NCBI RefSeq assembly: GCF_002163855.1
Contig: NZ_CP019332.1
Location: 1,467,145 to 1,531,144, forward strand
Length of the DNA: 64,000 bases
Origin: Winogradskyella sp. PC-19
Lineage (GTDB): Bacteria; Bacteroidota; Bacteroidia; Flavobacteriales; Flavobacteriaceae
Direction of reading: 5' to 3'
Notes under the pieces: generated by a model
What the model was told of the DNA's origin: nothing
Database searches by the model: none
The model's input: the letters and a program-made list of their open reading frames with translations, nothing else
In this document: in pieces, positions 11,922 through 57,138 of the stretch
Layout of the letters: each line of letters starts with the position of its first letter
Numbering within the stretch: position 1 is the stretch's first letter
Translations under genes and position numbers: made by a program

Positions 11922-12005
11922 ATTAAAAAACTTCATCAACTATCGTGCTAAAATGCATATTCAATAGTAGATGAAGTTTAATTAACGCAGAAATCTGCGA
12001 ATTAT

Positions 12006-34180: not shown

Positions 34181-34212
34181 AAAAGGTCTAGAAATAATCT
34201 AGGCCTTTTTTT
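34181..34212 (+). terminator. Terminator between the helical lipoprotein and lacI-type genes
   Basis: AAAAGGTCTAGA (34181-34192) pairs with TCTAGGCCTTTT (34198-34209, one wobble) over a 5-base loop, and a run of seven T ends at 34212. It overlaps the 3' end of the convergent LacI-type gene. The minus strand has only four T after the stem, so it may work weakly that way too. Confidence 0.8.
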
Positions 34213-39310: not shown

Positions 39311-40801
39311 TTAGTTAATAATTATAGTTTGTAATGCTTGCGCATTTATGTGAATATCAATAGATTTTTCGTTTAAAGAAAGATTAAAATTTTGTTCAGT
39401 TTCGCCTTCATTAAAAACAACAACTGCAATTGTACCGTCAGGATTTTGGGCCGCAGTAATTTGAAGGTCTTTATTACCATTTTCAACACCTAAGACCTCA
39501 GCACCAGGGCGAATATATTTACTAAAATGTGCCATAACATAATACAGTGGCGTGAAATAAATCTCGTCGGCATCTGGATCTACAATCACTGGTGCTGCAC
39601 ACCAATTTTTGAACCAGTTTGGTCCACCTTGGCGATCTAAAACCATATTCCAGTCGACCCAACCGTCTACCCAATTATTCATACAACCAATAATATCTCT
39701 GGCGTATCTATTTACAGGAGCATATTTAGGGTGTAAATATTTTTCTTCTTCAGAGGCCCAATCCCAACCCCAATCTGTTGCTTCTTTGCTCCAATACCAA
39801 TTATCATCTTTCCAAGCAGGTACTTCAGAATCTACACAACCTTCAGTTTCAATAAGAAATTTATTTGGTGCTTTGTTATGAGCATATTGTAATTCTTCAG
39901 GGAAAACTTCGTATGTACTTTCGTACCAATGAATTGCTGTTCCGTCAAAATACTTTGATGTTTCTTCATCCTTATACATAGAATCAACCCACTCTTTTAA
40001 TCCAGCTCGGTTTTGATCATAACCTAAAATAATTTTATCGCCATGTCCATCAGATTCTAACTTTGGCCCTAGGTGATTCATAACAAAATTGGTCATCTCA
40101 TCAGGTGTATAGTGCATACTTTCCCAATTATTACCGTTGCCATGTGGTTCATTTTCTACAGTGAGGCCCCAAATATCAATACCTTGCTCCTTATAGGCAT
40201 CTATATACTTAGAAAAGAAAAGTGCCCAAGTGTTGTAGTATTTAGGTAGTAGTTTACCTCCAACCCATTCATTATTATCTTTCATCCATGGCGCAGCTGT
40301 CCAAGGTGACGCAAAAATTTTAAATCCATCTTCAGAAGTTTGCATAGCATCTTTAATCATAGGAATCAAATCGTCCATATCATCTTTTATGGTAAAATGC
40401 TCTAAGTTGACGTCATCTACTACTGGAGAGTATGAATACTGAGATAGTGAAAAATCACAGGAATTCATATGTGTTCTGGTTAACGAATAATTGGCACCTT
40501 CTCTACCGAAATATGCATTTATAATTGTATCTCTATTCTTTTTACTAAGTCTATTAAGTAAATAAGCTGATGACTCGGTAAAAGCACCACCAAATCCCGT
40601 TATCTTCTGTAATCTTTTAGTTGTATCAATACTTACAGTATCTATGTCCTTATTTGTAGTTTCTTTGAAATCAGTAATCTCAGTTAGTTGATTACCGCTT
40701 TTTGAAGTTTCATAAATATTTACCTTCAATTCATTATTATTACTTTCACAACTCATTATTAATACTAAAAAACAAATGCTATAATACGTTACTGATTTCA
40801 T
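39311..40801 (-). CDS. GH30 lipoprotein (probable beta-1,6-glucosidase)
   Basis: 496 residues with a lipoprotein signal (FLVLIMSC, lipid Cys18). The GH30 catalytic barrel shows ITGFGGAFTESSAY, ASPWTAAPWMK, acid/base Glu218 in GLTVENEPHG and nucleophile Glu320 in LIETEGC, followed by a C-terminal beta domain. Marine flavobacterial GH30 enzymes in laminarin loci remove the beta-1,6-glucose branches, and that is the likely job here. Anchored in the periplasm or at the outer membrane. Spacing of 15 bases on both sides places it in the operon. Confidence 0.93.
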   Translation of the reverse strand: MKSVTYYSICFLVLIMSCESNNNELKVNIYETSKSGNQLTEITDFKETTNKDIDTVSIDTTKRLQKITGFGGAFTESSAYLLNRLSKKNRDTIINAYFGREGANYSLTRTHMNSCDFSLSQYSYSPVVDDVNLEHFTIKDDMDDLIPMIKDAMQTSEDGFKIFASPWTAAPWMKDNNEWVGGKLLPKYYNTWALFFSKYIDAYKEQGIDIWGLTVENEPHGNGNNWESMHYTPDEMTNFVMNHLGPKLESDGHGDKIILGYDQNRAGLKEWVDSMYKDEETSKYFDGTAIHWYESTYEVFPEELQYAHNKAPNKFLIETEGCVDSEVPAWKDDNWYWSKEATDWGWDWASEEEKYLHPKYAPVNRYARDIIGCMNNWVDGWVDWNMVLDRQGGPNWFKNWCAAPVIVDPDADEIYFTPLYYVMAHFSKYIRPGAEVLGVENGNKDLQITAAQNPDGTIAVVVFNEGETEQNFNLSLNEKSIDIHINAQALQTIIIN

Positions 40802-40816
40802 CTTAAATAGTTTTTA

Positions 40817-42106
40817 TTAATGCGTAGCCATAACCTCATCTTTTGATGGAGGCACTAGAACATCTTTCATTAAATCTACTTTATTGCCATTGTAGGTTTT
40901 TCTAATCGTATTCCCGTCTCGAGTTAAACCATCAAAAACACCTTCATCAACTAAATCCCAAATAGGGTATTTAGCTTTTCCATCAATAGTGAATAATCCA
41001 AAATGATTTTCTGACCCATTAGGATGCGCAGCGTCTTTCCATTGCTCATTAAAAGCTTCAAAATAAAAACAAGATATACCAGCTCTATTTGTCCATGCTC
41101 TCATTTGCTGATGAAATAAGCCTTGCTTATACTCATCTGTTGCTCTAGACCCATTATTACCATATTGTCCACTAGAAACTGAAGCCCAACCTGTTTCTCC
41201 GATATGAATAGGTTTTTTAACACCTAGACTCTTCATGTAATTCGTTACACTATCGTATTGTTTTTGAGAAAATTTAATCGCTCGCTCCATAGCCATCTCA
41301 ATCTTGGTAGTATCTGGCATACCTTTATGAGCATTTGGAACATGCCAAAACTCAGGATTATAATGTGTATTATGATATGGATAAGTATGCATTGAAATGT
41401 AATCGACCGCCTTAACTAAATCCTCTAAAGCTTTTACATGGTATTTATCTTCTCCGCCACCCCAAGATGCAAAATCATCCGAACTGGTGATCCACAATTC
41501 TTTGGAAAGTTTACCTTCTGTTTTTAAATCCTGTAAATGATTTACCCATTTTAGGATTACATCAGGCTGGACATAGTAACTTGTTGCCCATTTTACCATG
41601 GCTTCATTACCAACTGCGATAACTTTTACAATCTCTGGATATTGATTAGCTAAATCAACTGCTCTAGCTATTTCACTGGCATTGTTTGGACTCTCTACAT
41701 CATGATTTGGCACTTTATCTGTCCAAGCGTTTAAGCAATCAATCCATGCTCCTAACATCACATACATTTCAAAATTTTCGTCCTCGTTCTTTAACTCTGT
41801 AATAGCCTTTAAGATGTTTGAAGCGTGAGGTAGTTTTGATTGTACATTATAAGTTCGTATAACTTTAATACCCATGGCAGAGAGAATCTTCATATCCTCT
41901 TTTAATTGAGGAATAGTTGGTTGACTATCTCTAGATTTTTTTCTATAACCTCCGTAAGAAATAGCCTGATAATCTGGATTTCCTAGTATGTCTTTTGCTG
42001 TCACTTGCTTCTGTGTCTGCATTATTGTTTCTTTTTTCTTTTGATTACAGGCCATGACGAATATTGAAAATAGTATACAAATTGCTATGTTATAATTCGT
42101 CTTCAT
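40817..42106 (-). CDS. GH17 lipoprotein (periplasmic or surface beta-1,3-glucanase)
   Basis: 429 residues with lipoprotein signal ending FSIFVMAC (Cys20). A GH17 barrel has acid/base Glu168 in VIAVGNEAMV and nucleophile Glu304 in PIHIGETGWASV. It also shows MGIKVIRTYNVQS and YISMHTYPYHNTHYNP. Longer than the cytoplasmic paralogue at 36796-37707 and poorly alike outside the catalytic motifs, so this is not a recent duplicate. It would shorten laminarin-derived oligosaccharides before inner-membrane transport. Five bases separate it from the upstream phosphorylase candidate. Confidence 0.92.
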   Translation of the reverse strand: MKTNYNIAICILFSIFVMACNQKKKETIMQTQKQVTAKDILGNPDYQAISYGGYRKKSRDSQPTIPQLKEDMKILSAMGIKVIRTYNVQSKLPHASNILKAITELKNEDENFEMYVMLGAWIDCLNAWTDKVPNHDVESPNNASEIARAVDLANQYPEIVKVIAVGNEAMVKWATSYYVQPDVILKWVNHLQDLKTEGKLSKELWITSSDDFASWGGGEDKYHVKALEDLVKAVDYISMHTYPYHNTHYNPEFWHVPNAHKGMPDTTKIEMAMERAIKFSQKQYDSVTNYMKSLGVKKPIHIGETGWASVSSGQYGNNGSRATDEYKQGLFHQQMRAWTNRAGISCFYFEAFNEQWKDAAHPNGSENHFGLFTIDGKAKYPIWDLVDEGVFDGLTRDGNTIRKTYNGNKVDLMKDVLVPPSKDEVMATH

Positions 42107-42111
42107 AAAAA

Positions 42112-45100
42112 TTATTTTAATATTGCTGAATTGATATGCACATCTATTCTACGAATAGCTCCTGTTCTAGAAAATAATGAATCACTGAGTTTTACATCCA
42201 ACTGTAATCCTTCAAAAGTACTTTTTGACTCATCAGTCATAGTAACTTCGATGCTGTTATTCGTTGAAATATGATAGACAACAGGTACTTGACAATAAGT
42301 GAAAGCTAGGCTGCCTTTAACTAACTTCAAATCTGTAAATTCCCCATCAATGTTGACATATTTGGTTTCTTTATCTGCTTGTAAAAATTCTTCTTTTCGT
42401 AAGAGACAAGGATTAAAAGTTAACCTACCTTCTTCAACAAAAACTCCTAGTTCTCCGAAACGACTTAAAATGTCTTCCTTTACCTGACCGGTCATTCCTG
42501 GTTGTTGTGCTCCTTTTCCGCCAGGTGTATGAGAATAAGGATCTGTTGGAAAAGCACCATATAACTCAGGCGATTTGTGAACTCCGATTCCCTCGTTAAT
42601 CTCGTAAAAGTGCTCTAATAATTGTCCTATGACTACTTCATTTTCTGCTGCATTAACAGCATCTACACAGCATTCCTGAACAGCTAATAACAACTTAGAC
42701 ACCATATGCCAATATATAGAACCTAAACCTTCATAACCGTAAAATGTTCCTGATCGTCCAGTAAATGCTTTATGGTTAAAAACATCTTCAAAAGTCTGCA
42801 ATACTTTCGGTGTATCTGACTCTAAATACTCACTATACTTGGTTTCAGAAAGTTTTTCTAATGCATCCGATAAATCACCTGCATTTTTGAAATTTCCATT
42901 AAAATGATATTCTCCATTAACATCTTGCTCTACTATTTGAGCATTTTTATCTTGTAATAACTCTTGTAATAACCTTGAAGATTGTATAGCTTCTTCGGGA
43001 ATTGTATTTCTATCTAAAAACCCTTTTAGCTCTTTATTTGGATAAAGCAAATAACTATACTGATCTTGTCTAAAAAGTTTACTCTGTTTAAGCGCATTTA
43101 AAACATCAAGTGTCTCATTAGCATTTAAATACCCTGAACTTAAAACAGCAACCTGACCTTCTAACATCTCACTTAAATAAGAAATAGAAACAGAATTATC
43201 TTCATTTACTGTCATTAAATTATAAGCATGATATAGATTATCCGAACGCTTATTAGCTCTTATAGAATGCTCTAAATAAGATTTACTAATCGTAACAAAA
43301 TCCTTTAGTCTATCTATTGAAAGTGTTGTTTTTCTTCCTGAGAATGCATTATTGTATATATTATCTCTAAACTGACTACCTGCTTTACCTAAACTATCTA
43401 AAATTAGCTTTTTGTCAGAATCGTTAATTGCATCTCCTAATAATGATTTGTGATTTTCAAAAGTATTTAATACGCCATTGAAAAAATCAAATATTTCGTT
43501 AGAAACTTGTACATCTTTAATATTTGTAGTAGCAAGTAGTTCTTCAAAGAAATTAAAGAATCTTCTTAAGTAATAAAGTGTAACCATAGAGACACCATTA
43601 CCTACCAATGCATTATTAGCATCATTCCATTCTGGTCGCTGGGTATTCATCCATATACCACCTTCAGGTATGAAGTTTGATAATTTAGCTAATGATGTTG
43701 CTAATATTTTCTCGACAAAATTAGCTTTAATAATAAATCTGTTTTCGTCTCTAAGTAAAGCACCGTCTGCACCAAGTTGCTGACGTTCTTCATTAATCTT
43801 ATGGTCTAATGCTTCATCAAAAACAATAGTATCTTTAGGGTCTTTAAGTAAATCTTTGTAAGACTTTATTTTGTATGGCACATTAGCATAGACAAATAAG
43901 TCTTTGGAAAAGAAACCTTCTAATTTACCTGGCTGATGATTATTTATAAATTCTAAAAACTTAAGTAGATATATAATTTGGTGATCGCCCCAATAACCAA
44001 TATATGACCAAGGGTCATCTGGTTCGATAGTTTCCCAATCAAAACCACCTTTTGTTACTCTGTAAGGATTGTAACCGTCGAATGTCGTAGCATTTAGGAA
44101 TTTATGAATCATACTCTCTATAAACTGAGGATAAGAATGCGCTAAAGCTTCCCAGTTTTGAAATATGTCTCTCCAATTACCTTCGTAATCTAATATTTTT
44201 GACCCATCAATTTCGCTTCTTGTATTAATAGAAAATTTGTTCCATGGTCTACTTGGGTCGCCGTGACGACGACTAAACTTTAGTGGCATATATTCAAGAC
44301 ATAGGCGTCTAAAATTTTTGTCTTCACTATTGTAAGCTATGGTTTGTATATCAGCTAAAGAAAATACTTCAGGCAGATTTTCTAGAACTGACTCGGATGT
44401 CCTTGCAACTTTCTTATTTGCATTACTTAGATAGTTTTTAAAATCCCATTTTTCTATTTGATAACCATTATCAAAAATACCTCCACGCATTATATTAAAT
44501 AGTGTATTAGCAAAATGGCGGGTATCTCTTAAACTATCTGCAGAAACTTGAATACCGTCTGAGGCAGCATTCAATTTTACAAGTCGCTTGGTTCCTTCGC
44601 TAATGTTTTGGTTGACTTTATCAATTAAAGAATTATCTTCTTTTATCTGTTTTGCTAAATAAGCAATATCTGAATGGTTTTTATTAACATCAGCAACTAT
44701 CATCCATTGCTTTGAAGTTTGCGCCGATAGTTCTATTTCAGTTGAAACAAAATATGCTCCTTTTTCAGCTTTTATATCTAGTTCTTGAGAAATAGACTTA
44801 CGCGACCTGAAATTATCTAATTGTAATGACGACAACAAATATGTTGGATTCTCAAAGCCCAAAGACCAAACTACATTGGCCTTTAATGCTTCACTAGCCT
44901 CTGCTTTATCTACAAGAATTGCACTAAGTGCAAAAATTCCCATCCCGGTAGGCTCATGTAATTCATTACGCTTGTATGCATCGACCAAATTACTTGCAGA
45001 ATTTTGTATATCACTGCCAATACTTGCAGGAACAATATTCTGAATCCCGTCAAGTAATGTAACCTTTACAGGAGTTTCTGATGTATTAATTAATTTAGAT

Positions 45101-45606
45101 TTTTTTATAAATCCAAATTGATTTGAAGAACTCCATTGATATCTAAAAGTTAAACCTAAGTCATGATTAATTTCCTCAAAAATCACCTTATTACCATATC
45201 GGCTTTTGTAAAGATTTTGGGTTGTATTATACTTGCCTAGTGACCGTATGGCTAATGGCTCCCACATGTATACTTGACCATCTTTTGTGATTTTAAAAAC
45301 AGATTTATTACCTGTAATATCTGCAGATTCTGTTATTTTATCGTCTGTATAATATGGGAATAAAGCAAATTCAGAATTTTTTCGTCCCGCGGTTAGACCT
45401 CCATTACTAGATATAAACATCCAGTGGTTAGAGTCGCTAACGATACTCATAAAAAACGGACGCATCTTGTCGCTGTTAGAGATTTTGAAATAATTTTCAT
45501 TATCTATAACAATTGTTTTAAGTTCTATATTATTGGTAAAATTCAAGGTTTGCTCTTTTTCTGCTAAAACAGTGTTAGTCATTATACGATTAATGTTAAG
45601 TAACAT
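42112..45606 (-). CDS. Candidate beta-1,3-glucan phosphorylase (GH149/GH94-like)
   Basis: A 1164-residue cytoplasmic protein with no signal peptide. An N-terminal beta-sandwich region (about 20-330) precedes an alpha-helical barrel. GH94-like landmarks are WRDIFQNWEA (about residue 475), DPWSYIGYWGDHQIIYLLKFLE, RPEWNDANNALVGNG (candidate catalytic Asp662) and a C-terminal PGMTGQVKEDILSRFGELGV. Size and domain order fit GH149 beta-1,3-oligoglucan phosphorylases (about 1100 residues), with GH161 or GH94 as alternatives. It would release glucose 1-phosphate from imported oligosaccharides. The first ATG overlaps a palindrome; the ATG at 45582 is an alternative start. Family call is by motif memory. 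Confidence 0.72.
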   Translation of the reverse strand: MLLNINRIMTNTVLAEKEQTLNFTNNIELKTIVIDNENYFKISNSDKMRPFFMSIVSDSNHWMFISSNGGLTAGRKNSEFALFPYYTDDKITESADITGNKSVFKITKDGQVYMWEPLAIRSLGKYNTTQNLYKSRYGNKVIFEEINHDLGLTFRYQWSSSNQFGFIKKSKLINTSETPVKVTLLDGIQNIVPASIGSDIQNSASNLVDAYKRNELHEPTGMGIFALSAILVDKAEASEALKANVVWSLGFENPTYLLSSLQLDNFRSRKSISQELDIKAEKGAYFVSTEIELSAQTSKQWMIVADVNKNHSDIAYLAKQIKEDNSLIDKVNQNISEGTKRLVKLNAASDGIQVSADSLRDTRHFANTLFNIMRGGIFDNGYQIEKWDFKNYLSNANKKVARTSESVLENLPEVFSLADIQTIAYNSEDKNFRRLCLEYMPLKFSRRHGDPSRPWNKFSINTRSEIDGSKILDYEGNWRDIFQNWEALAHSYPQFIESMIHKFLNATTFDGYNPYRVTKGGFDWETIEPDDPWSYIGYWGDHQIIYLLKFLEFINNHQPGKLEGFFSKDLFVYANVPYKIKSYKDLLKDPKDTIVFDEALDHKINEERQQLGADGALLRDENRFIIKANFVEKILATSLAKLSNFIPEGGIWMNTQRPEWNDANNALVGNGVSMVTLYYLRRFFNFFEELLATTNIKDVQVSNEIFDFFNGVLNTFENHKSLLGDAINDSDKKLILDSLGKAGSQFRDNIYNNAFSGRKTTLSIDRLKDFVTISKSYLEHSIRANKRSDNLYHAYNLMTVNEDNSVSISYLSEMLEGQVAVLSSGYLNANETLDVLNALKQSKLFRQDQYSYLLYPNKELKGFLDRNTIPEEAIQSSRLLQELLQDKNAQIVEQDVNGEYHFNGNFKNAGDLSDALEKLSETKYSEYLESDTPKVLQTFEDVFNHKAFTGRSGTFYGYEGLGSIYWHMVSKLLLAVQECCVDAVNAAENEVVIGQLLEHFYEINEGIGVHKSPELYGAFPTDPYSHTPGGKGAQQPGMTGQVKEDILSRFGELGVFVEEGRLTFNPCLLRKEEFLQADKETKYVNIDGEFTDLKLVKGSLAFTYCQVPVVYHISTNNSIEVTMTDESKSTFEGLQLDVKLSDSLFSRTGAIRRIDVHINSAILK

Positions 45607-45671: not shown

Positions 45672-48455
45672 TTATTCTAAACGGATATTATCGAAGTAAA
45701 ACACTTTATCTGTTGTTGTAACTTCTGTATCAGTACCGTCAGGGTTATCTGGCTTAATTACCAATTGATTTACACCTGTATTACTTGGCGGTATTCCAGT
45801 AAAAGTAATCTCAACTTCAGTCCATGTATTTGCGTTAGTAATTGTTGCAAACTGAGGGCCAGGATTACCAGAGTTAGGATCTTGTGGATCACTATTAATT
45901 TCAAAACGCATAACCACATTTGCTTCATTAGTATATACTAAGAATTTGAATGTTCCTGTACCATCAAAATTACTTGGAAATGCATTTTGAATTCCGCCCC
46001 AACGATTTATCCCTGCAGATTTATCTACTCGTAATACAAAATCAGACGTATTTAAACCTGAGGCATCTGGGTTATCTGTTAGGCTAGTTGCCATTCCTGC
46101 TCCTGTGCTAGAAAACGTACTTGTAAATGACTCACAATCTTCAAAAGTCACTGGGAAAGCTGTTGCTGGAACTGCACCAGTAGTACAACCACCACCAGTT
46201 CCGCCACCGCCACCTCCAGGTGTACCGTAAACCATTAAGTCATCAAAATAATATGTACTACCATCTGCAACATTAAAGTTGAAGAAAATCACAAGCTTAT
46301 TAAATTGTGGTGTTGCAGTTGGAGCAAAATCATAAGTTAATTCTGTCCATGTATTTGCAGCACCTGTTGTTTGCAAAATTTCAACAAAATTTCCAGCATT
46401 ACCTATTTCTTCTAGTTTTAATAAAACTGGTGTGTTAGCTACTGGCGACCAAACTTTCATTTTCATACCTTCTGAAGTATTGAAGTCTAGCTTATCCGTT
46501 AAATCAATTTGTACATTGTCAAATGGAGAAGCATTGAATCTTATAACCTCTGCAACTCTACATGAGCTATTTACAGAACCTGCAAAATCAGGATTATCGA
46601 TATAAGACACACCAGTATTGTCTCCAATTAAAGCAGGAGTATCAGTCTGGAATGTGATATTTAAATCTGCTGCTGCAATGGACTCTGTAGTTTCAGGAAC
46701 ACAGTTTCCTCCACCGCCACCTCCAGCGCCATAAACCATAATGTCGTCAACAAAATATGTACTAGCATCACCAACATTAAAGTTGAAGAAGATAACCATT
46801 TTGTTGAACTGAGGAGTTGCTGTTGCTGGGAAGTCATATGTTAGTTCTGTCCATGTGTTTGCAGCACCAGTAGTTTGTAATATTTCAACAAAATTTCCTG
46901 AGTTTCCTATTTCTTCTAATTTTAAAAGAACAGGTGTATTTGCAACTGGTGACCAAACCTTCATTTTCATACCTTCAGAAGTATTAAAATCTAATTTATC
47001 AGCTAAATCTATTTGAAGATTATCAAAAGGCGAATTATTAAATCTTGTGACTTGACCAACTCTACAAGACATGTTTGCTCCAGAAGCATCTGGATTGTCA
47101 ATATAAGAGAAAGCTACATTATCTTCAATTACTGTAGGTGAATCTGTTTGGAATGTAATGTTTAAATCCGCTGCTGCTATTGACTCTGTAGTTTCAGGTG
47201 TACAAGCTGGACCAGTATTACCAGAAACTTGTGCAAAATCATCAACATAAAAAGTTCCAGCATCAGTTTGATTAAATGCTACAAATAGCACCATATCATT
47301 ATAAGAACCAGTAGAGTTTAGAGTAAATGTCAACTCTTCCCAACCAGTACCCATGTGCATTTGATTATCTTCAACATCAGCTTCTGTACCATCTTCAAAC
47401 TTTAATAAAATTGGAAGCGCTTGATTTGAAAATATTTTTACGCTAACACCTTGGTCTGTAGAAAAATCAATTGGAACATCTAAATTAAAAAATGCATTTT
47501 CAAAATTGTCGCCACCATTGGTGATTTGACCTACTTTTGTTGCATCTGCATTGATACCAGATAATTCAGGATTATCAACAACTGTAAAACTAACATTACC
47601 TACTATTTTTGCTGCATAATCAATTGTTTCACAATCAAAATCCATTGGGAATTCTAAGTCTGTATCTGTACATGGGATATCAGCTGTGTTAATTTGAGAA
47701 ATGTCATCTATGTAAAATGTTCCTGCTGTAGTACCTGGACCATCAACAAAAAATGTTACTGTAGAATAGCTAGCTGCTGAGTCAAAGGTAAAATAAAGTT
47801 CTTCCCATCCTGTACCACCATGACTAGCTAAAATTTCTGTATCTGCAGCTGTTCCATTTTCTAACTTTAATAGAATATCAATTGGAGAAGTAGACCAGAA
47901 AAGTATTTTCACTGTTTTGTCTACAGATAAGTCAAGGTCTACACCTAAATCAAAAAAGAAGCCTTCAAAAGTTGCGCCACTATTTACAATTTCTCCAACA
48001 TTTGAAACCGTTGGATTTGCTCCTGAAGCATCTGGATTTTCAACTATTTGAAATGCTGTTCCACCAAATACAGTTGCTCCATAATCTACTAATGGATTAT
48101 CAAAAGAAATAGGGAAACCTACTTCTTCAGGTATAGCGATAGTAAAAGTGTCCTCAAAAGTATCAGAAGCTCCTGCAACATTTGTTGCTTCTAAAACTAC
48201 AGTATATGTACCCGATGTATATACCTTTATAGGATTTACTTCTGTTGATGTTGTTCCATCTCCTAAATCCCAAGTATAGTTATCTGCATTGGTAGATGTG
48301 TTAATAAATGATACAACACCAGTATCTTGATTAATTGTTTGAGTGAACTCTGCATTAATCTGTGGTAAGACTGCATCGTCTTCATCACAACCTAAATATG
48401 CTAAAGCCAAAAACAAGACTGACAGCAACTTTATTCCTTTCGTTATTTTTTTCAT
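45672..48455 (-). CDS. Surface glycan-binding lipoprotein: PKD plus five jelly-roll domains
   Basis: About 927 residues from ATG 48455, with lipoprotein signal LFLALAYLGC. A PKD domain (AEFTQTINQDTGVVSF ... YTWDLGDGTTSTE) is followed by five jelly-roll modules of about 150 residues. Each opens with a FPxxFD- or TTESIAAADL-type strand and closes with a FYxDD motif. Modules three and four are nearly identical in protein, joined by Gly-rich linkers (GGGGGGN, GGGGGG), but differ at many synonymous codon positions. No catalytic residues are evident. It directly follows the GH16 gene and takes the place of SusE/SGBP-type proteins in ordinary loci. Glucan binding is inferred. Confidence 0.85.
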   Translation of the reverse strand: MKKITKGIKLLSVLFLALAYLGCDEDDAVLPQINAEFTQTINQDTGVVSFINTSTNADNYTWDLGDGTTSTEVNPIKVYTSGTYTVVLEATNVAGASDTFEDTFTIAIPEEVGFPISFDNPLVDYGATVFGGTAFQIVENPDASGANPTVSNVGEIVNSGATFEGFFFDLGVDLDLSVDKTVKILFWSTSPIDILLKLENGTAADTEILASHGGTGWEELYFTFDSAASYSTVTFFVDGPGTTAGTFYIDDISQINTADIPCTDTDLEFPMDFDCETIDYAAKIVGNVSFTVVDNPELSGINADATKVGQITNGGDNFENAFFNLDVPIDFSTDQGVSVKIFSNQALPILLKFEDGTEADVEDNQMHMGTGWEELTFTLNSTGSYNDMVLFVAFNQTDAGTFYVDDFAQVSGNTGPACTPETTESIAAADLNITFQTDSPTVIEDNVAFSYIDNPDASGANMSCRVGQVTRFNNSPFDNLQIDLADKLDFNTSEGMKMKVWSPVANTPVLLKLEEIGNSGNFVEILQTTGAANTWTELTYDFPATATPQFNKMVIFFNFNVGDASTYFVDDIMVYGAGGGGGGNCVPETTESIAAADLNITFQTDTPALIGDNTGVSYIDNPDFAGSVNSSCRVAEVIRFNASPFDNVQIDLTDKLDFNTSEGMKMKVWSPVANTPVLLKLEEIGNAGNFVEILQTTGAANTWTELTYDFAPTATPQFNKLVIFFNFNVADGSTYYFDDLMVYGTPGGGGGGTGGGCTTGAVPATAFPVTFEDCESFTSTFSSTGAGMATSLTDNPDASGLNTSDFVLRVDKSAGINRWGGIQNAFPSNFDGTGTFKFLVYTNEANVVMRFEINSDPQDPNSGNPGPQFATITNANTWTEVEITFTGIPPSNTGVNQLVIKPDNPDGTDTEVTTTDKVFYFDNIRLE

Positions 48456-48479
48456 AATATTATTGTATTGCATGATTTA

Positions 48480-49349
48480 TTATTGTTTGTAAACTCGAAC
48501 GTAATCTACGAGCATGGTTTGTGGAAATTCTGTTTCTGCGTTTGGTGGTCCTGGCAAGTTACCTCCAACTGCTACGTTTAATATGATATAGAATGGTCTA
48601 TCATTAAACACCCATTCGCCTTCCCCATTTGTTTCCTCATCTATATCTTCTGGAGTAATCTGATTATATAATACATCGTCAATATAGAAGTTAATATAGT
48701 CTGGACCCCACTCAATGCCGTATACATGAAACTCTGTGTCTACTCTTGTATTTTCTAAAGTATAGCTTTTTGATACAGACTCTGCTCCTGAATAACTTGG
48801 TCCATGAACAGTACCAAATATTTTAGTTGGTTCGTCACCTACATTTTCCATAATATCAATTTCACCAATTTGCGGCCAAATTGAACCATCACTATCTTCT
48901 CCTAACAACCAAAATGCCGGCCACATTCCTTGTCCATAAGGTAAACGTATGCGAGCCTCAAAGCGTCCATATTGTTGTTGAACATTATTTTTTGTTTGCA
49001 GTCTTGCTGAAGTATACTGTGCACCATTGAACTCTTCTTGTCTAGGTGTTATTAGTAGATACCCGTTTTCTACAGTGGCATTTTCAGGCCTATCAGTATA
49101 ATATTGTAATTCATTATTTCCCCAACCTGGTATTCCTTGTGCTGTACCGTCACCAATATCGAAATTCCATATGTCTGTGTCTATCACACCATCCTTATCG
49201 AAGTTGTCTTCAAAAACTAAATTACTAAAAGTTGCAACGGTTTGTGTTTCGTCTGTATTACAGCTTACTGTAGAAGCTATTAAAAAAATACCGAGAAGTA
49301 CATTCCCTAAGGTTAGTTTTTTTGTTGTTTTCATAATCTTCATTTTCAT
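48480..49349 (-). CDS. GH16 lipoprotein (laminarinase type)
   Basis: 289 residues with lipoprotein signal ending LIASTVSC (Cys30 from this start; ATGs at 49343 and 49334 are alternatives). The GH16 beta-jelly-roll has catalytic motif GEIDIMENVG (nucleophile Glu163, Asp165, acid/base Glu168), preceded by WPAFWLLG and RLQTKNNVQQQYGRFEARI. EIDIME with the extra Met is the laminarinase (beta-bulge) form. It probably cuts beta-1,3-glucan at the cell surface. Located between two binding lipoproteins. Confidence 0.95.
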   Translation of the reverse strand: MKMKIMKTTKKLTLGNVLLGIFLIASTVSCNTDETQTVATFSNLVFEDNFDKDGVIDTDIWNFDIGDGTAQGIPGWGNNELQYYTDRPENATVENGYLLITPRQEEFNGAQYTSARLQTKNNVQQQYGRFEARIRLPYGQGMWPAFWLLGEDSDGSIWPQIGEIDIMENVGDEPTKIFGTVHGPSYSGAESVSKSYTLENTRVDTEFHVYGIEWGPDYINFYIDDVLYNQITPEDIDEETNGEGEWVFNDRPFYIILNVAVGGNLPGPPNAETEFPQTMLVDYVRVYKQ

Positions 49350-49381: not shown

Positions 49382-50815
49382 TTAATAGAAATAAATATTG
49401 TCTACGAAAAGATTTGATATCGTTGGATTTGCTGGTCCACTCTCAGAATTAAATAATAGTAGTCCTATTCTAGATAAATCACTCAATCCTGAAAAACTAG
49501 ATAATGGGATATCAAAGCTTACCCAAGTATCTTGAGCTAGTTCGCTTCCATTTATTAAGAAGGAGCCAACTGTTTCCGTAGCGCCATAATTAGTAAGTTC
49601 TAATAATAGTCTATCTCCTGATTGCAACGCTTCCTGAACATTTATATCTATATGCAATGTCGTTAAATTTGTAGCGTTAACTGGAGGCACTGCTTCTGCT
49701 GGGAATATTACATCGTTAAAAACTATACCAACAAAATTTAAATTTGTGTAGCTGATTATTGATTGATTAGCAACAGGCAAAACTCCACCTAGTGTCGTCT
49801 GAAAAGGCTCAAAAAATGAATTATATCTAGAGACTGGAATATCAGTGTATGCATCACTGAACAAAGAAACCACTGATGAAGCATCTTGGGTTGGTACAGG
49901 TGCAAATTGAAATGGCCCGCTAGTTGTTATCTCTAATGAACCTTCGGCTAAAACTCCATTTAGTTGTGCAGTGATTGTTGCAGAACCTTCGCCAATAATA
50001 GAAATCTCTCCAAGTTCATTAACAATAGCAACATCTATATTTGAAGACTCAAAATCAAAATAAGAAGGAGATGCTCCGACCGTTATGTTGCTACCATCTT
50101 CTACGTTAAACGTTTGTGTAAGGCCTGTAATTTCTATTGTTGTATCCGTAAAAGCTTGTTGAACTATATCTTGACCATCAAAAATTCTTGGTCTTGGTTG
50201 AGCAATCGTTCCAAGATTTTCGAATCTTAACTCATCAATCCAAAATGTAAAACCAAATCCATTAGTACTGTTAGTTCCTGCAGAAAAAATAAACACTCCC
50301 TTTTCTTGTATTAATTTTGATGGGTCTGGAATTGGAATTGTATATTTTCTCCAGTCAGTAGAAAGTTGCGTATCTGATTTACCAACGCTATACTTATTTT
50401 CTTCAAAATCAGTACCAAATCCAAATAAGCCTACAGTAGCAGTTGTCGAAGCTTTAGCATAAAATGTTAACGCATCAAACCCACTTAAATCTCTTCCTGT
50501 TCCTCGATCTAGAAAAATACCTCCAATAAAACCGCCATTTGGGTCGTTTGGTGCAGGCACATCTATTCGTATTGAAGAGTTACCTTCAAAAGCTTCATTT
50601 TCGTCAGTACCAAAGCCTTGAGGATTAGCGCCAGCAGCTGGATCAAAAGAAACAAAAAATTCGTCTGTAAGACCTACGGGTGCATCTGTAAATATATCTC
50701 CTGTAGCAGGAAATGAAGCAAATTCAACATCGTCTGACAATCCTCTCTCACATCCTAGCATCACAAAAGTAAAAGCTAGAATTGTAAATACTTTATATGT
50801 ATTAATTTTTTTCAT
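49382..50815 (-). CDS. Lipoprotein with CBM-like, BIG2-like and jelly-roll domains
   Basis: 477 residues, lipoprotein signal FVMLGC (Cys22). Residues about 30-205 form a carbohydrate-binding-like jelly roll (FEGNSSIRIDVPAPND, FWIDELRFENL). About 215-300 is a BIG2-like Ig domain (ITVGASPSYFDFESSNIDVA ... GSATITAQLNG). About 305-477 is a second jelly roll starting APVPTQDASSVVSLFSDAY, the type often attached to flavobacterial GH16 enzymes. It is non-catalytic by inspection. It begins 8 bases after the barrel-fusion gene and is probably a surface glucan-binding partner of it. Confidence 0.85.
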   Translation of the reverse strand: MKKINTYKVFTILAFTFVMLGCERGLSDDVEFASFPATGDIFTDAPVGLTDEFFVSFDPAAGANPQGFGTDENEAFEGNSSIRIDVPAPNDPNGGFIGGIFLDRGTGRDLSGFDALTFYAKASTTATVGLFGFGTDFEENKYSVGKSDTQLSTDWRKYTIPIPDPSKLIQEKGVFIFSAGTNSTNGFGFTFWIDELRFENLGTIAQPRPRIFDGQDIVQQAFTDTTIEITGLTQTFNVEDGSNITVGASPSYFDFESSNIDVAIVNELGEISIIGEGSATITAQLNGVLAEGSLEITTSGPFQFAPVPTQDASSVVSLFSDAYTDIPVSRYNSFFEPFQTTLGGVLPVANQSIISYTNLNFVGIVFNDVIFPAEAVPPVNATNLTTLHIDINVQEALQSGDRLLLELTNYGATETVGSFLINGSELAQDTWVSFDIPLSSFSGLSDLSRIGLLLFNSESGPANPTISNLFVDNIYFY

Positions 50816-50823
50816 CTTAAAAA

Positions 50824-53800
50824 TTATTTTCCAATATTAATATGTACATAAGTTCTAATTTCCCATTCTTGACCATTATCAAAACCAACGTTACTAATAG
50901 GTGGTACTGGCGGGAATGTGTTTGGCGCAACAAAATTAGGTCCAAAGCGAGGTGAGAATTCATTTAATGATCTCCATGTACCTCTTATTCCAATTCTTGT
51001 ACTTGGCAGAATAAACCAATCTGGTTTTCCTAGGCTAGTTGAAATATCTACCATAAGCTGTAAAGGGAATGTGAGGTTAAAGTCTCTATGATAATCGAAT
51101 GGTCCCCAATCATTTACCTTAACATGTGTTTGAAGCATCATTTTTTTATAAATAACCCTTACATCTCCTCCAAAGCGTTTAATCAATCTATCACTATCTC
51201 CGTTTGCTTGTCCGTTACCATAATAGAAGTTTCCTATTATACCTAAATCGTTATTTAGTTTTGAAACCATTCTTGAGTTAATCTCCCATAAATCTTCAGC
51301 TGGTGCTGATTGAGGAAAAGCAAAAAACTGTCTGTTTGCTAGAAATCCAATGTGTGCATCAGTTGTAGTAGGAAGACGACGATATGTAAATCCTAAATTT
51401 GCTGCAAATTCAGCATCTTCAGCACGGTCATTATTCCATTCATACATCCATGTTCCTGGTGTTGGATCGTATGTCACTAACATTTCATACCCATAAGTTT
51501 CTCTATTACCGTTTCTAACTGCAAAAGGGTCATCAATAACATTTCTTAATCTTCCTGGTCCTTGAACGTCATTAGGCATCTGAGCCACCAAAGGCTTTTG
51601 GAACATAAAATTTGGAGCTATCTGGAAGTCTCCCATTGTATATGTAAATCCTGATAATAGGTTAACTTGGTTCCCGCTACCTGAGTCTTTTAATCTCCAA
51701 CCAGTAAATGTTTGAGTTTGATCAGCACCACCATTGGCAACTAAGCCCATATAAGCACCTTGGCCGTACCAATTAAAACGACCGCCTTGATACATGACCT
51801 TAAACTTTCCACCCCAATTATCGCTAGATTGAACTTTATCATTATATACTACATAGTTACCTGAGGTTCCTCTAGTGTCTTGAAAACCAACACCATTTAA
51901 TGGGCTTCCTGCCCATATACCACCGACCATAACATTGAATTTACCATAGTCTTTTTCTACAGCAACTGTTGCTCTCTCAGTAGGAAAAGCTGGGATAATA
52001 CCACTTCGTACTTGGTTTGCATCTAATACACGTTGACCAGTATCAGGGTCAATCTGAATTTCTGTTTCAAAATCTCTATGATAAATACCTGTTATATCAT
52101 ACCCTTTATAGTTTTTAGAATATTTGAATAACATTGTAGGGTTTGCACCCCACCAAAGTTGTGGTCCAATTGCAGCTTTTAAACCTTTGAAAGCTCCTTT
52201 ACCATCAATTTCGGCACCTAATATCTCACCACCGTAAATATCTAAATTAGGTCCATAATTAGCTTCTGGATATAATCCAAAAAAGTCTCCTTCATATCCC
52301 CAATGATAATGACCTGTTCTATAAAATCCTCTTAAATCAAAGTCCTTAGCGTTCCACTCAAATTCAGCATTGTAAACTTGAACTCTATTGTTATCATTTA
52401 TAATAATATCCTCTCCATTTGCACCTTCAACAGTAATAGGTCTTGCTCTGTTTTCATAAAAAATCTCATCTATTGGGTTTTGAGCAACATTACCAGTAAT
52501 ATTAAAGTTTACATTAGCACGCATGTTAGATGAAGGCTTTCCTTGAACTCCAATGAAATAAGATTGCATATGATCAAAACCTAATTGATTTGGAAATGCA
52601 TTAGAAGCTGGGTCAGGACTATCTGGTGTTGTAATTAGACTACCACCAGTACTAAATGTTGAAAATCTGGCACTTAATTGGCTTATACTTAATTTACCAC
52701 CATCTTGTGACCCCAAAGCCGCTTTGTCTCCTCTTGCCTTTAAAACAGCATCCATTAAATTAATATTACTGAAATAGTTCTCAACAAAATCAGAATCAAC
52801 TCCTTCATCATAAGGGTTTAACTGATGCGCTTCTTTTAAAGCATAATACACAGCACGAGGATATAAGTCGTAAAGACCTCTTTCATTTGTTGGCCCTTTT
52901 GCACAAATACCAAACCACTCTTCATTCATATTATTACCACCAGGAGCTAAATCTCTCTCATAACCTCCATTTGGCCAAGTAGCCGTTGTATTATGAACGT
53001 CGAAGTCTTTTGTTTGATTCCATTTCCACCAACCATCGCTTGACTGAAAAGTGAAACCACCTATTGAGTTTCCTGTCTTACCCAATCCTGCTGCATTTTG
53101 ATAGATCTCTTTCCAATTACCAATGTTATAGTAAGCTTGACTAAATTGGTCTTCTTTGTTATCTATTGCATTAAATGCATCCGCTCCAAATTCAGCAAAA
53201 AGAATAGGTTTATCCAATTCATCATTCACTCTTTGAAACGCATCACTAAATGAAATACCTCTATACATATTTGTACCATATATATCAACATCTTTACAGT
53301 ACTCTTTAACAATGTCAAGGTATAGTAAATCACCATTACAAATAGCAACCGGAACAGAGTTGTCTATTGCTTTTATTTCTATCGCTGCATCATTGACTGC
53401 TTTGTATAATCCCTCAGCTGCTAATCTTATACCTGGATCAACTCCATCGATAGGAATCGCTTCAGTTTCAGCACCTGTCCATGATAGGTGATAATTATTT
53501 TCGTTACCAATCATGTATATTAATAGCCCAGGAGTATTCTTGTACTTTTTTGCCATATCGGTAACCTCTTTCATAAGAACTTTTCTTGTTTCAGAGTCGG
53601 TGTAGTCGGTTTGTGGTGTCCATGCTCCGTTAATTGTCAAACCATAAGCACCGAATTGGGTATTTAACATTGTGTAAATCCCATAATTCTCATAAATGTA
53701 CGTTATCCATCTAGGCTCCAAACCATAAGTACGAATGGCATTAACACCCATGTTTTTAAATAGTGCCATTTCAGAATCCAATGCAGCTTTGATAATATCA

Positions 53801-54003
53801 TCTGACTGATTCCATATACCTTTATCAAGAATTCCGTTACCTATTGGAACATAATCCCAATTGATACCATTGACGATAAATTCTTTTCCATTGACAACTA
53901 ATTTTTTTCCAGAAGTATCACTAACGATGGATATTTTCTCAGTTTGTGTAAAAACTGAGTTTGTAATAAGGATTACTATAAACCCGAGAATTAATTTCTT
54001 CAT
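50824..54003 (-). CDS. TIM-barrel glycosidase fused to a predicted outer-membrane beta-barrel
   Basis: 1059 residues with signal peptide (MKKLILGFIVILITNSVFTQ). Residues about 30-395 are a clan GH-A-like TIM barrel: GKEFIVNGINWDY, NAIRTYGLEPRW, acid/base candidate Glu168 in YMIGNENNYH and nucleophile candidate Glu271 in PILFAEFGADAF. After a linker, about 470-1059 is a long series of alternating amphipathic strands with aromatic girdles (RTGHYHWGYEGDFFGLYPEA, WYGQGAYMGLV, HIGFLANRQFFAF), ending RTYVHINIGK, as in porin-like barrels. No TonB-receptor plug is seen. It is the first gene of the locus. Family (GH2-, GH5- or GH17-like) is uncertain; the two-part architecture is clear. Confidence 0.82.
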   Translation of the reverse strand: MKKLILGFIVILITNSVFTQTEKISIVSDTSGKKLVVNGKEFIVNGINWDYVPIGNGILDKGIWNQSDDIIKAALDSEMALFKNMGVNAIRTYGLEPRWITYIYENYGIYTMLNTQFGAYGLTINGAWTPQTDYTDSETRKVLMKEVTDMAKKYKNTPGLLIYMIGNENNYHLSWTGAETEAIPIDGVDPGIRLAAEGLYKAVNDAAIEIKAIDNSVPVAICNGDLLYLDIVKEYCKDVDIYGTNMYRGISFSDAFQRVNDELDKPILFAEFGADAFNAIDNKEDQFSQAYYNIGNWKEIYQNAAGLGKTGNSIGGFTFQSSDGWWKWNQTKDFDVHNTTATWPNGGYERDLAPGGNNMNEEWFGICAKGPTNERGLYDLYPRAVYYALKEAHQLNPYDEGVDSDFVENYFSNINLMDAVLKARGDKAALGSQDGGKLSISQLSARFSTFSTGGSLITTPDSPDPASNAFPNQLGFDHMQSYFIGVQGKPSSNMRANVNFNITGNVAQNPIDEIFYENRARPITVEGANGEDIIINDNNRVQVYNAEFEWNAKDFDLRGFYRTGHYHWGYEGDFFGLYPEANYGPNLDIYGGEILGAEIDGKGAFKGLKAAIGPQLWWGANPTMLFKYSKNYKGYDITGIYHRDFETEIQIDPDTGQRVLDANQVRSGIIPAFPTERATVAVEKDYGKFNVMVGGIWAGSPLNGVGFQDTRGTSGNYVVYNDKVQSSDNWGGKFKVMYQGGRFNWYGQGAYMGLVANGGADQTQTFTGWRLKDSGSGNQVNLLSGFTYTMGDFQIAPNFMFQKPLVAQMPNDVQGPGRLRNVIDDPFAVRNGNRETYGYEMLVTYDPTPGTWMYEWNNDRAEDAEFAANLGFTYRRLPTTTDAHIGFLANRQFFAFPQSAPAEDLWEINSRMVSKLNNDLGIIGNFYYGNGQANGDSDRLIKRFGGDVRVIYKKMMLQTHVKVNDWGPFDYHRDFNLTFPLQLMVDISTSLGKPDWFILPSTRIGIRGTWRSLNEFSPRFGPNFVAPNTFPPVPPISNVGFDNGQEWEIRTYVHINIGK

Positions 54004-54309: not shown

Positions 54310-57138
54310 TTATATCTCTAAAATATAATTTGTTAAGCTTGTCTCATGTGATAATTCCATCTTTTTACGCAAACGATATCGTTTTACCTCTACACTTCTA
54401 TGAGAAATATTAAGTAGAGGAGCAATCTCTTTTGAAGATAGGTTTAGTCTAAGATAAGCGCACAGTTTTAAATCATTAGGAGTTAATGCGGGATGCTTCT
54501 TTTTTACTTTCTTTAAGAAGTCTTTATCTGCATTATTAAAAGCTTCTTCGAAGAATTTCCAGTCTTCGGTATTATTTATATTTTTATCTATAATTTTTAT
54601 AATCTTATTTAACTCTTTACCTTTTTCTAAATCATTTAGCTCTTTCTTGAGAGTAGCTAAAAATTCATTTTTTCGAATGAGAGTCATTGTAGATAAACCA
54701 AGCTCTCGATTTTTATTCTCAATATCTTGTTGAAGACTTTTATTCTTATACTCCATCAACTGTCGCTGGCTCTCTAATTCTTTTATTTCTAGTTCTTTCT
54801 CTTTTGTTGTCAATAAAGAATCCTTCTGTCTTTTGTAGTACAACCTATTTAAATACTGGATTAATGACGCAATAACAATAAATAGTAAAACATAACCAGC
54901 TATTGCAAAAGGCTTTAGATACCATGGTTTTTCAATAGTAAAATTGAAAGTGGCAGTATTTGAAGAGATATCACTACCTACTTTTGCCCTGACTTCAAAA
55001 GTGTAATCACCATGAGGAAGGTTTTCAAATAATATATCTGATTTAGAAGACCATTCGCTCCAATAATCATAAATACCAACTAGTCTGTATTGATAAAATG
55101 ATGGGGAAAGTTTAACAAAATCAGACACACTATAAGTAAAGTAAAGATCATTCTGTTTATTCTTTAAAAAAATGTCCGTAGAAATATCGATTGGCTGAAT
55201 ATCTTGTTGCAATATTAAGTAGGACGCATTATCGATTGATATGGTATACTCTTTTACATTGAACTTTTCGGTGTCAATTACCAAATAACCATCCGTTGTT
55301 CCTAATAAATAAGAATTATTCTTTAGGTACAAAATATTTTCAAAACCTGGTTTGCTTTTTCTTAAATCACTAGGCAAATCAATGGTATTGATGATTGGTT
55401 TTTCTGTAAGTTTACCTGGCTCTATGAAAATTAATTGATTGTTAAAAAAGCTCCACAATCTGTCTTTATTCTCATCATAAACCAGATTGCCTGAGGCGTA
55501 ATTAGATGCAGTAAAATATGGCTTTAGCAAATCTGTTTTTTTGAATACTTCTTTTTTATCGTCATAAGAAAATACACCATCATGATATACATACAATATC
55601 TCTCCTTTATAATGTATAAGACTAGAACCAATACCCTTATCTACTTCAAGTTTATTTGAACTTATAACTTTTGACAAATCATTATCAAGATTTAATTTAT
55701 AAACTCCTTTATATTCATGACTAACTAAAAGTTCTGAATCATTTACAAACTCAAAATACCTTGAAGAAATATCAAATCCTTCAACTTTATTTCTAAATTT
55801 CCAAATACCCGCAGACGACTTCTCTATTACGCTAAGACCATTGTAATTGCCAATCATTAGTAAATCCGGCCTCTTTTTTATAGATTTAATTATCCAAGAA
55901 CCTTCTTCAGTAGAAATTTCAACAGCAGTACTGTTTTTAATCTCAAAACTTCCCTTATCATGACCACAGAATAAAGTGCCATTAATCTGTTTTAAAAACC
56001 ATACCTGACCTTTAGTTTTTGGAATTAATTTGAACTTATCTGAACTATTAATTGGCTTATAAAACAAACCTTGATTTGTTCCTAAATAAATATTTTCTGA
56101 TGTTTTCTCAGATGCATATACGGTTCCTAAATAGCCTTGATTATCGGTGTAAACTCTGTAAGGTGAATTAAGGTTTAATACATTAATACCGTTATCTAAA
56201 CCCATCCAAATATTACCTGAAATGTCTTGAAAAACAGAAAGAACTGTGTTATTAGATAAACCAGAGTTTTTATTCATCCTAAAAAGTACATTTCCTTTCT
56301 TATCTAGCTTAATAATACCGTTAGAAATAGTACCTAAAATAAAATTTCCGTTACGTAACCTAATACTATTATATACACTGACCTGAGACAATAATGGATT
56401 AGAGGATATCTCCCATTTTTTTAAATCTCCATTGTAATATTCATAGAATCCGCTTTCTCTTGAGTGAATAAGTAATTTGTTATCATTCTTATATATATTA
56501 ACTATTTCTTCTTCTTTTAGTAGTTTTTCATCACTAATAAGAACTGCTTTTCCATTTTCTATTTTAGAAATTCCCACACCTGATTCTTGAAAATATATAG
56601 ATTCATCAACTCTAAATGCCTTTGTTATAGCTGTTTTAGACTTTATAATTCTAAATGTTTTTTTTGATGTGTTATAAATATAAATGCGGTCTAATGATTG
56701 AAACAACACAAACTCACCATATGGTATTATGTTCCAAAACTCTTCGTCTTCTAATAAATTTTCATCTAAGTTCTCAGAAATAGATTCGTAAATTAATGTA
56801 CCAAAACTGTCTCTCTTCCAAAATCCGAAATTCATATAACTTCCGGTATATACTAAATCATTGATTACAGCGACTGACCTAATAATACTTTGATCAGCTA
56901 GAGTATATAGATTCCAACGTGCTCCATTATACTCTAATAAACCTTTATTATTAGCTACATATATATTTTTATCATTGTCTTGACTAATTGACCAATTTTG
57001 ATCATCCGCTTTATAGTCTTGAGGTGTAAACCTTTCGATTGGGGGAAACTCTTGAGCAGAAGCTGAAGTTATAAAAAAGATATATATTAAATAGAATGCA
57101 ATTTTTTCGAATATGAGCTTGTAGGTTTTTAACAACAT
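54310..57138 (-). CDS. Membrane-spanning triple-tyrosine regulator with LuxR-type HTH
   Basis: 942 residues. A signal peptide (to about 29) is followed by a large periplasmic sensor of two-bladed-propeller type repeats (NIYVANNKGLLEYNGARW; NIWMGLDNGINVLNL) and a Y_Y_Y domain (YQYRLVGIYDYWSEWSSK ... GDYTFEVRAKVG). One TM at about 737-760 leads to a coiled coil and a C-terminal HTH (LTPNDLKLCAYLRLNLSSKEIAPLLNIS). It has no kinase or receiver domain, so it is a one-component regulator that binds DNA while in the membrane. It most likely senses glucan breakdown products and activates the adjacent operon. Confidence 0.9.
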   Translation of the reverse strand: MLLKTYKLIFEKIAFYLIYIFFITSASAQEFPPIERFTPQDYKADDQNWSISQDNDKNIYVANNKGLLEYNGARWNLYTLADQSIIRSVAVINDLVYTGSYMNFGFWKRDSFGTLIYESISENLDENLLEDEEFWNIIPYGEFVLFQSLDRIYIYNTSKKTFRIIKSKTAITKAFRVDESIYFQESGVGISKIENGKAVLISDEKLLKEEEIVNIYKNDNKLLIHSRESGFYEYYNGDLKKWEISSNPLLSQVSVYNSIRLRNGNFILGTISNGIIKLDKKGNVLFRMNKNSGLSNNTVLSVFQDISGNIWMGLDNGINVLNLNSPYRVYTDNQGYLGTVYASEKTSENIYLGTNQGLFYKPINSSDKFKLIPKTKGQVWFLKQINGTLFCGHDKGSFEIKNSTAVEISTEEGSWIIKSIKKRPDLLMIGNYNGLSVIEKSSAGIWKFRNKVEGFDISSRYFEFVNDSELLVSHEYKGVYKLNLDNDLSKVISSNKLEVDKGIGSSLIHYKGEILYVYHDGVFSYDDKKEVFKKTDLLKPYFTASNYASGNLVYDENKDRLWSFFNNQLIFIEPGKLTEKPIINTIDLPSDLRKSKPGFENILYLKNNSYLLGTTDGYLVIDTEKFNVKEYTISIDNASYLILQQDIQPIDISTDIFLKNKQNDLYFTYSVSDFVKLSPSFYQYRLVGIYDYWSEWSSKSDILFENLPHGDYTFEVRAKVGSDISSNTATFNFTIEKPWYLKPFAIAGYVLLFIVIASLIQYLNRLYYKRQKDSLLTTKEKELEIKELESQRQLMEYKNKSLQQDIENKNRELGLSTMTLIRKNEFLATLKKELNDLEKGKELNKIIKIIDKNINNTEDWKFFEEAFNNADKDFLKKVKKKHPALTPNDLKLCAYLRLNLSSKEIAPLLNISHRSVEVKRYRLRKKMELSHETSLTNYILEI

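Follow-up and report, generated by a model that had tools for sequence, protein, structure and literature searches.

How glucan would cross the outer membrane in a flavobacterial locus without a visible SusC or SusD is the question raised by a 64,000-nucleotide stretch of Winogradskyella sp. PC-19 DNA (contig NZ_CP019332.1, positions 1,467,145 to 1,531,144 of the forward strand), hereafter the window. Laminarin, a beta-1,3-glucan, is a main marine carbon store. No SusC or SusD was seen in the window gene run 34199-57138, where one gene (50824..54003, minus strand) encodes, in a single chain of 1059 residues, a signal peptide, a clan GH-A TIM barrel and an outer-membrane-type beta domain. On balance, a modest preference is given to the reading that this protein is a periplasm-facing fusion of an enzyme and a porin which, together with the lipoprotein LP477 encoded next to it, may stand in for SusCD in beta-1,3-glucan loci.

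The gene is a single uninterrupted open reading frame on the minus strand, and the plus-strand reading of the same interval is riddled with stops. The product begins with a type I signal peptide (residues 1-20, MKKLILGFIVILITNSVFTQ, 53944..54003), recognized by reading and with Gln20 invariant in 63 aligned rows. It is followed by the TIM barrel (residues 21-400, 52804..53943), a conserved tail belonging to the enzyme (residues 401-430, 52714..52803), a variable hinge (residues 431-436, 52696..52713) and a predicted outer-membrane beta-barrel of about 26 strands (residues 437-1059, 50827..52695). The limits of the tail and the hinge come from comparison with relatives devoid of the barrel, which share the tail up to about residue 417-431. 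The predicted acid/base Glu168 (53500..53502) lies in the motif GNENN and the predicted nucleophile Glu271 (53191..53193) in FAEFGAD. An initial annotation made from the sequence had claimed this frame with its signal peptide, a GH-A-like barrel and these two glutamates, and all of them were confirmed where it had placed them.

A search of genome_contigs with E up to 1e-3 returned at least 586 candidate stretches, enzyme-only kin possibly included, and the best 80 were kept. The frame was full-length (at least 1037 residues) in 80/80 of these nearest stretches, and 170 distinct full-length sequences were collected, including that of the window, to which the most distant was 52% identical. Since relatives are encoded in so many stretches and the frame is conserved at full length, the fused chain is not a chance product. 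A gap of at least 20 points between the identities of the enzyme and barrel parts was detected in 14/14365 sequence pairs. Loci L003, L004 and L005 showed enzyme/barrel identities to the window protein of 64/88, 87/74 and 88/72%, respectively, as if one part had been swapped.

The fusion is widespread in Bacteroidota. The barrel profile gave a match in 30/296 genomes of a phylum sample, with one full frame (1028-1084 residues) in 28/296; the two leftovers were a broken or fragmentary copy (G241) and a remnant behind a stop (G125). The whole profile matched 87/397 genomes of a family sample; 78 of these have a single full-length frame, 5 a copy split into pieces and 4 the enzyme part alone. In an order sample 19/395 genomes were positive, 17 with a full-length copy and 2 with the enzyme part alone. 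A free-standing barrel was not seen in the searches of these three samples. Moreover, full-length copies were present in a plasmid collection, in Persicobacter (60% identity) and in the gut species Bacteroides finegoldii (54%), and the two patterns used on viral contigs yielded no relatives.

The analysis of the enzyme part with Pfam detected Glyco_hydro_2_C at residues 32-286 of the window protein (E 5e-12), accompanied by one sub-threshold DUF match. The same model was matched in 42/43 members, and Glyco_hydro_72, the model of the GH72 glucanosyltransferases, in 5/43. GH2 enzymes have N-terminal jelly-roll and immunoglobulin (Ig)-like sandwich domains ahead of the TIM barrel; here the TIM match begins at residue 32, straight after the signal peptide, so that the GH2 architecture is not present. 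The top PDB profile matches were 9oro, named as a GH158 enzyme (E 5e-4), and 6pal (E 6e-4), which we take to be BuGH158; GH158 thus heads the matches, yet with E values of only about 5e-4 and over part of the length. Both catalytic columns line up in the profile alignment, Glu168 with the GNE of 9oro and 6pal, and Glu271 with the TEFG of 9oro and the TEWG of 6pal. Arg91, Asn167, Glu168, Tyr247, Glu271 and Trp325 did not vary in 170/170 sequences, that of the window counted. The hallmarks of clan GH-A are therefore found by alignment (a TIM barrel, an Asn-Glu pair and a later second Glu at the catalytic places). These, with the GH158 and GH72 matches and the invariant catalytic set, assign the enzyme part to clan GH-A and make it probably active on beta-1,3-glucan.

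The nature of the C-terminal part was addressed from its pattern of strands. A topology drawn by eye contained 26 strands, with 12 short turns alternating with 13 longer loops. In 169 of the 170 sequences (L115 was excluded), the turns had a mean length of 4 residues and length variants in 0.2%, and the loops a mean of 23 residues and variants in 18%. The hairpins were drawn before the coevolution runs but after the indel list was known, so this count was not blind; strand 19 was taken in it as 881-893, where length varies in 20% of the sequences, and was later shifted to 880-889. In the B. finegoldii and Persicobacter copies, which were outside the drawing set, all 12 turns were kept and the length changes fell in loops, with the exception of one residue within one strand of the Persicobacter copy. 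Additionally, neighbouring strands coevolved in antiparallel register more than pairs at least three apart (p 8e-4 for neighbours joined by a turn, 4e-6 for those joined by a loop), and the part was free of cysteine in 160/170 sequences. The median strand density was 1.68 per 100 residues, against 1.57 in 18 SusC proteins of the same loci and 0.50 in the enzyme part; the amphipathic scorer used has hand-set weights, and its medians ranked the C-terminal part and SusC highest among the groups. In the window protein, Pfam (E up to 1) found no TonB plug or receptor domain, and none of the CarbopepD_reg, Plug and TonB-receptor domains of SusC. TonB-receptor models were matched weakly in 5/43 members (best E 0.0033).

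Several results weigh against a membrane barrel. Beyond weak matches (best E 0.044), the C-terminal ~620 residues corresponded to no Pfam family in the 43 members, and their profile found nothing in the PDB at E up to 10. When this profile was compared by hhalign with the 18 SusC proteins, with soluble neighbours and with the enzyme part, no alignment and no discrimination was obtained. Six of the 13 loops scarcely vary in length. In the coevolution analysis the parallel-register controls reached p 0.05 (turns) and 0.01 (loops), and pairs two strands apart were somewhat raised as well, so that nearness alone explains part of the signal. Some neighbour pairs carried no signal, pairs 6-7 and 16-17 ranking at the bottom, and closure of the barrel between strands 1 and 26 was not detected (66th percentile). 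The B. finegoldii copy has two cysteines in this part. The strand scorer ranked LptD and LamB of E. coli below LacZ at a threshold of 4.5 (only LptD at 4.0), soluble PKD-CBM (carbohydrate-binding module) proteins overlapped with the C-terminal part, and the automatic topology over-predicted, with 40 strands. As a control for the scorer and the automatic topology, a CarbopepD_reg_2 and DUF5686 protein of 842 residues (window positions 9411-11939), unconnected with the glucan locus, was used. Finally, outer-membrane beta-barrels usually end in an aromatic residue, and 0/170 sequences do so; the B. finegoldii copy ends in Phe.

The lack of a well-matching outer-membrane family, the aromatic C-terminus missing in 170/170 and the closure not seen would also suit a chain of soluble beta domains, for instance glycan-binding sandwiches, carried by a periplasmic enzyme. 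This explanation is considered very improbable, as short turns and long loops alternate over 26 strands whose neighbours coevolve, in a part nearly free of cysteine. Weighing the turn/loop asymmetry, the coevolution, the scarcity of cysteine and the strand density together with the missing terminal aromatic residue, the C-terminal part is very likely an outer-membrane barrel. The proposal of the initial annotation that one chain joins a GH-A enzyme to an outer-membrane-like domain, rich in beta-strands and lacking a plug, is supported.

The surroundings of the gene were then considered. By its gene content, which includes a GH149 phosphorylase (NF058639, 1815 bits), GH16, two GH17, GH30 and an MFS_2 sugar transporter, the window locus is a beta-1,3-glucan locus. 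The fusion gene is the first after a Reg_prop/Y_Y_Y/LuxR regulator (54310..57138, minus strand; Pfam), from which 306 bases separate it, and the gene of LP477 (49382..50815, minus strand) starts 8 bases downstream. LP477 has an acidic stretch after its lipid cysteine and, in some members, Ig-like or CBM11/CBM30-like domains (Pfam: Big_2 in 15/32 members, CBM11 in 3 and CBM30 in 1). The place directly after the fusion, which next to a SusC would be that of SusD, is held by LP477 in 78/78 of the nearest loci that have a next gene (2/80 end there), and in 39/40 further loci from other genomes. These 40 comprise 26 of the 30 phylum-sample matches and 14 loci chosen from the family and order samples. 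The earlier proposal of a first gene in a beta-glucan run without SusCD was borne out, and so was the view of the fusion as a good candidate for an uptake device that has been overlooked.

Of the 80 nearest loci, 46 show the regulator immediately ahead of the fusion and a flank free of SusC, and 18 have SusC upstream. In 4 others the regulator is again immediately ahead and SusC lies at another place in the flank; 4 have no upstream DNA and 8 are arranged otherwise. At least 22 of the 80 therefore also carry SusC in the flank, a point against the reading preferred here. In the further loci (about 10 kb upstream and about 2.5 kb downstream covered), SusC was found upstream of the fusion in 6/39, L268 being dropped because it has 2.6 kb of upstream DNA only. 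By contrast, relatives without the barrel and with enough context had SusC-SusD on the contig in 5/5 cases and in the same gene run in 4/5 (Fisher test, p 4e-4 for 6/39 against 5/5 and p 0.007 counting the same gene run only, the lineages not being independent). Left out on the barrel-less side were L239, whose contig is short, L240, which lies at the end of its contig, and L241, which is truncated and has SusC and SusD nearby on the other strand. In G129, SusCD lies in another cluster farther along the contig. SusC was detected in the loci by BLAST with one SusC query; nine long unmatched frames picked from fusion loci free of SusC showed no TonB receptor in Pfam, two of them having no match at all. 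One of these two, a frame of 1088 residues in L254 (9773-13036), a locus without SusC, lies upstream of the fusion on the same strand and terminates as a barrel would (...LYLSFGMDF). The complementary distribution of the barrel and SusCD suggests that the barrel may be dispensable where SusCD is available.

The B. finegoldii locus runs from a DUF6377 protein through the fusion, a Big_2 lipoprotein, GH16 and two more lipoprotein-like proteins to GH3; its 18 annotated features, over 29 kb, include neither SusC nor SusD (the gene table is incomplete). In L270 the fusion stands after LP477, GH16, GH149, GH30, MFS and LP477, and not before them.

The presence of SusC upstream in 18/76 of the nearest loci with at least 2.5 kb of upstream DNA leaves room for a barrel that merely anchors or scaffolds the enzyme and LP477, with no passage of sugar and with uptake by SusCD encoded elsewhere or by general porins. 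In the window strain, the absence of SusCD concerns the gene run 34199-57138. Furthermore, the laminarin SusCD of Maribacter is scattered in the genome (PMC11345257), and therefore SusCD may also lie elsewhere for fusion loci, a point against the reading we prefer. A mere anchor is nevertheless quite unlikely, since only 6/39 sampled fusion loci have SusC upstream and all five barrel-less relatives with enough context carry SusC-SusD on their contig; besides, a barrel of about 26 strands exceeds what an anchor needs.

The side of the membrane faced by the enzyme can be approached from six relatives that consist of the enzyme without the barrel, one of them (L195) fused to GH16. As judged by reading their starts, L194, L195 and L242 have plain type I signal peptides, L237 and L238 are lipoproteins in which no more than one of the six following residues is acidic, and L239 is ambiguous. 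An acidic stretch after the lipid cysteine is a mark of surface lipoproteins in Bacteroidota. In the 80 loci, the mean net acid at this place was +3.7 in PKD-CBM proteins (53/61 with a lipobox), +2.6 in SusD (20/22), +2.1 in GH16 (83/86) and +1.7 in LP477 (78/86), compared with -0.1 in GH30 (30/42) and -1.2 in GH17 (59/72); the lipobox finder is rough and also fires on 9/80 fusion proteins. No clear acidic surface-export signal was seen in the starts of the barrel-less relatives. In most comparisons, the shared tail (to ~417-431) ends some 6 to 12 residues ahead of the first drawn strand at 437, a short stretch for threading the enzyme through the barrel. An even number of strands would leave both ends of the barrel, including the N-terminus, in the periplasm. 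The export signals of the barrel-less relatives, the short hinge and the even strand number make it likely that the enzyme sits at the periplasmic mouth of the barrel, and the "surface" glycosidase of the initial annotation was not borne out.

The same two-domain outer-membrane protein could instead hold its enzyme outside, as an autotransporter-like passenger or through an odd number of strands, and cut surface glucan to feed the pore, the view taken in the initial annotation. The neighbouring GH16 and CBM proteins look surface-exposed, the enzyme domain of L195 is joined to GH16 instead, and the conserved tail (401-430) looks helical by reading and might conceivably occupy the pore. The tail itself could even be counted as an autotransporter linker; past it there are 6 to 12 residues to the first strand, which is short for threading. 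With barrel-less relatives that look periplasmic and an even strand count as drawn, the outward orientation is unlikely.

The barrel-less forms were dispersed over a quick tree built from 63 enzyme domains, and the well-supported branches force at least four changes, which do not tell gain from loss. In L239 a piece of the barrel persists behind the stop, which shows a loss of the barrel. In L195 (6382-8436) a GH16 domain takes the place of the barrel after the enzyme domain, and the gene run carries SusC-SusD.

The other genes of the window locus, all on the minus strand and recognized by Pfam unless otherwise indicated, complete a possible route. Downstream of LP477 lie a GH16 lipoprotein (48480..49349), likely a surface laminarinase, and a PKD and CBM4_9 lipoprotein (45672..48473), likely a surface glycan binder, both judged by the acidic signal as well. 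They are followed by the GH149 beta-1,3-glucan phosphorylase (42112..45606, NF058639), in which no signal peptide was seen, a likely periplasmic GH17 lipoprotein (40817..42106), GH30 (39311..40801), the MFS_2 sugar transporter (37730..39295), a second GH17 with no signal peptide seen (36796..37707), a protein with a type IX secretion tail (Por_Secre_tail, 35272..36657) and a LacI-type regulator (34199..35206). In L014, L032, L035 and L043 an unmatched frame of ~600 residues lies between PKD-CBM and GH17, at the place of GH149 in other loci; GH3 takes the place of GH149 in some Muricauda (PMC13188888). A tandem pair of GH17-like genes was observed past GH149 in L004, L022, L027 and L053.

Under the favoured reading of a periplasm-facing enzyme-porin fusion, laminarin would be captured and cut at the surface by LP477, GH16 and the PKD-CBM protein. 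The oligosaccharides would traverse the plug-less barrel of about 26 strands and be cleaved or transglycosylated as they emerge by the TIM barrel, held on its short hinge at the periplasmic mouth. Cleavage on emergence might trap them without energy from TonB, as a hydrolysis ratchet. The breakdown would be completed by GH17 and GH30 in the periplasm, the MFS (major facilitator superfamily) carrier and the GH149 phosphorylase, and the barrel and LP477 would replace SusC and SusD. What the sequences show directly is the order of the domains, their conservation, the catalytic residues, the gene pairing and the complementarity with SusCD; a closed barrel, its orientation, transport, the substrate and the ratchet are deductions. 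The broader proposal is a TonB-independent glycan importer of Bacteroidota, made of an enzyme-porin fusion and a constant lipoprotein, gated one way by cleavage, interchangeable with SusCD, shared by marine Flavobacteriaceae and gut Bacteroides alike and missed by locus finders based on SusCD. It is advanced tentatively, from sequence comparisons, and our doubt about it outweighs our confidence.

Loci of this kind have been described before. Most Bacteroidetes GH149 genes occur in polysaccharide utilization loci (PULs) and in clusters of carbohydrate-active enzymes (CAZymes) without susCD, for which no outer-membrane importer is named in the accessible part of the report (PMC5827456); laminarin PUL variants are listed in PMC6298971. 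Among the most active metagenome-assembled genomes from the North Sea, one has a laminarin locus without susCD, and in expressed laminarin loci GH149 stands beside an unclassified GH0, within the top 10% of genes in one genome (PMC10108472). From the gene order, our guess is that this GH0 is the fusion protein. A GH2 gene is reported in a syntenic laminarin locus of Muricauda (PMC13188888), whose main text contains neither "outer membrane" nor "porin". Since contig SGIU01000001.1, on which L035 lies, appears in the list of that paper, we infer that its GH2 is the fusion. The literature searched, from which most subscription papers and preprints were absent, showed no account of a glycosidase joined to an outer-membrane barrel. 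The fusion is a concrete candidate for the missing importer of laminarin and GH149 loci without susCD, and suggests an overlooked uptake route for algal and dietary beta-glucans in many Bacteroidota. If the reading is true, screens defined by SusCD overlook a class of uptake loci, one of them in gut Bacteroides, and one-way uptake could come from cutting instead of from TonB.

Several known systems share features with the protein. As in SusC/SusD, a gene for a large outer-membrane-type barrel is followed directly by a lipoprotein gene, with a regulator near, in glucan loci; unlike SusC, the fusion has an N-terminal enzyme and no plug or TonB-receptor domain, and its partner is Ig/CBM-like and not a SusD. 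PgaA and BcsC have an N-terminal periplasmic domain followed by an outer-membrane barrel, the same order as predicted here, but they are export porins with non-catalytic tetratricopeptide repeat (TPR) domains, whereas the domain of the fusion is enzymatic. The autotransporters EstA and PlpD likewise join an enzyme, their passenger, and a barrel in one chain; their barrels of 12 or 16 strands secrete the passenger. With GH2, as annotated (PMC13188888; RefSeq WP_022275059.1), the fusion shares the match to the Glyco_hydro_2_C TIM-barrel model, and it differs in its TIM barrel right after the signal peptide and in a dissimilar C-terminal part. Clan GH-A, the Asn-Glu acid/base and the Glu nucleophile are shared with the GH158 enzyme BuGH158 (PMC7157763), a predicted surface enzyme with an Ig-like C-terminal domain, whereas in the fusion a barrel follows and the similarity is weak (E ~5e-4). 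Another parallel is the GH17-MFS fusion FbGH17b of Formosa (PMC6246565), also a laminarin enzyme and a transporter in a single chain, of which its authors knew no transporter-CAZyme counterpart in other bacteria; FbGH17b is an alpha-helical MFS carrier of the inner membrane, whereas the fusion described here is predicted to lie in the outer membrane.

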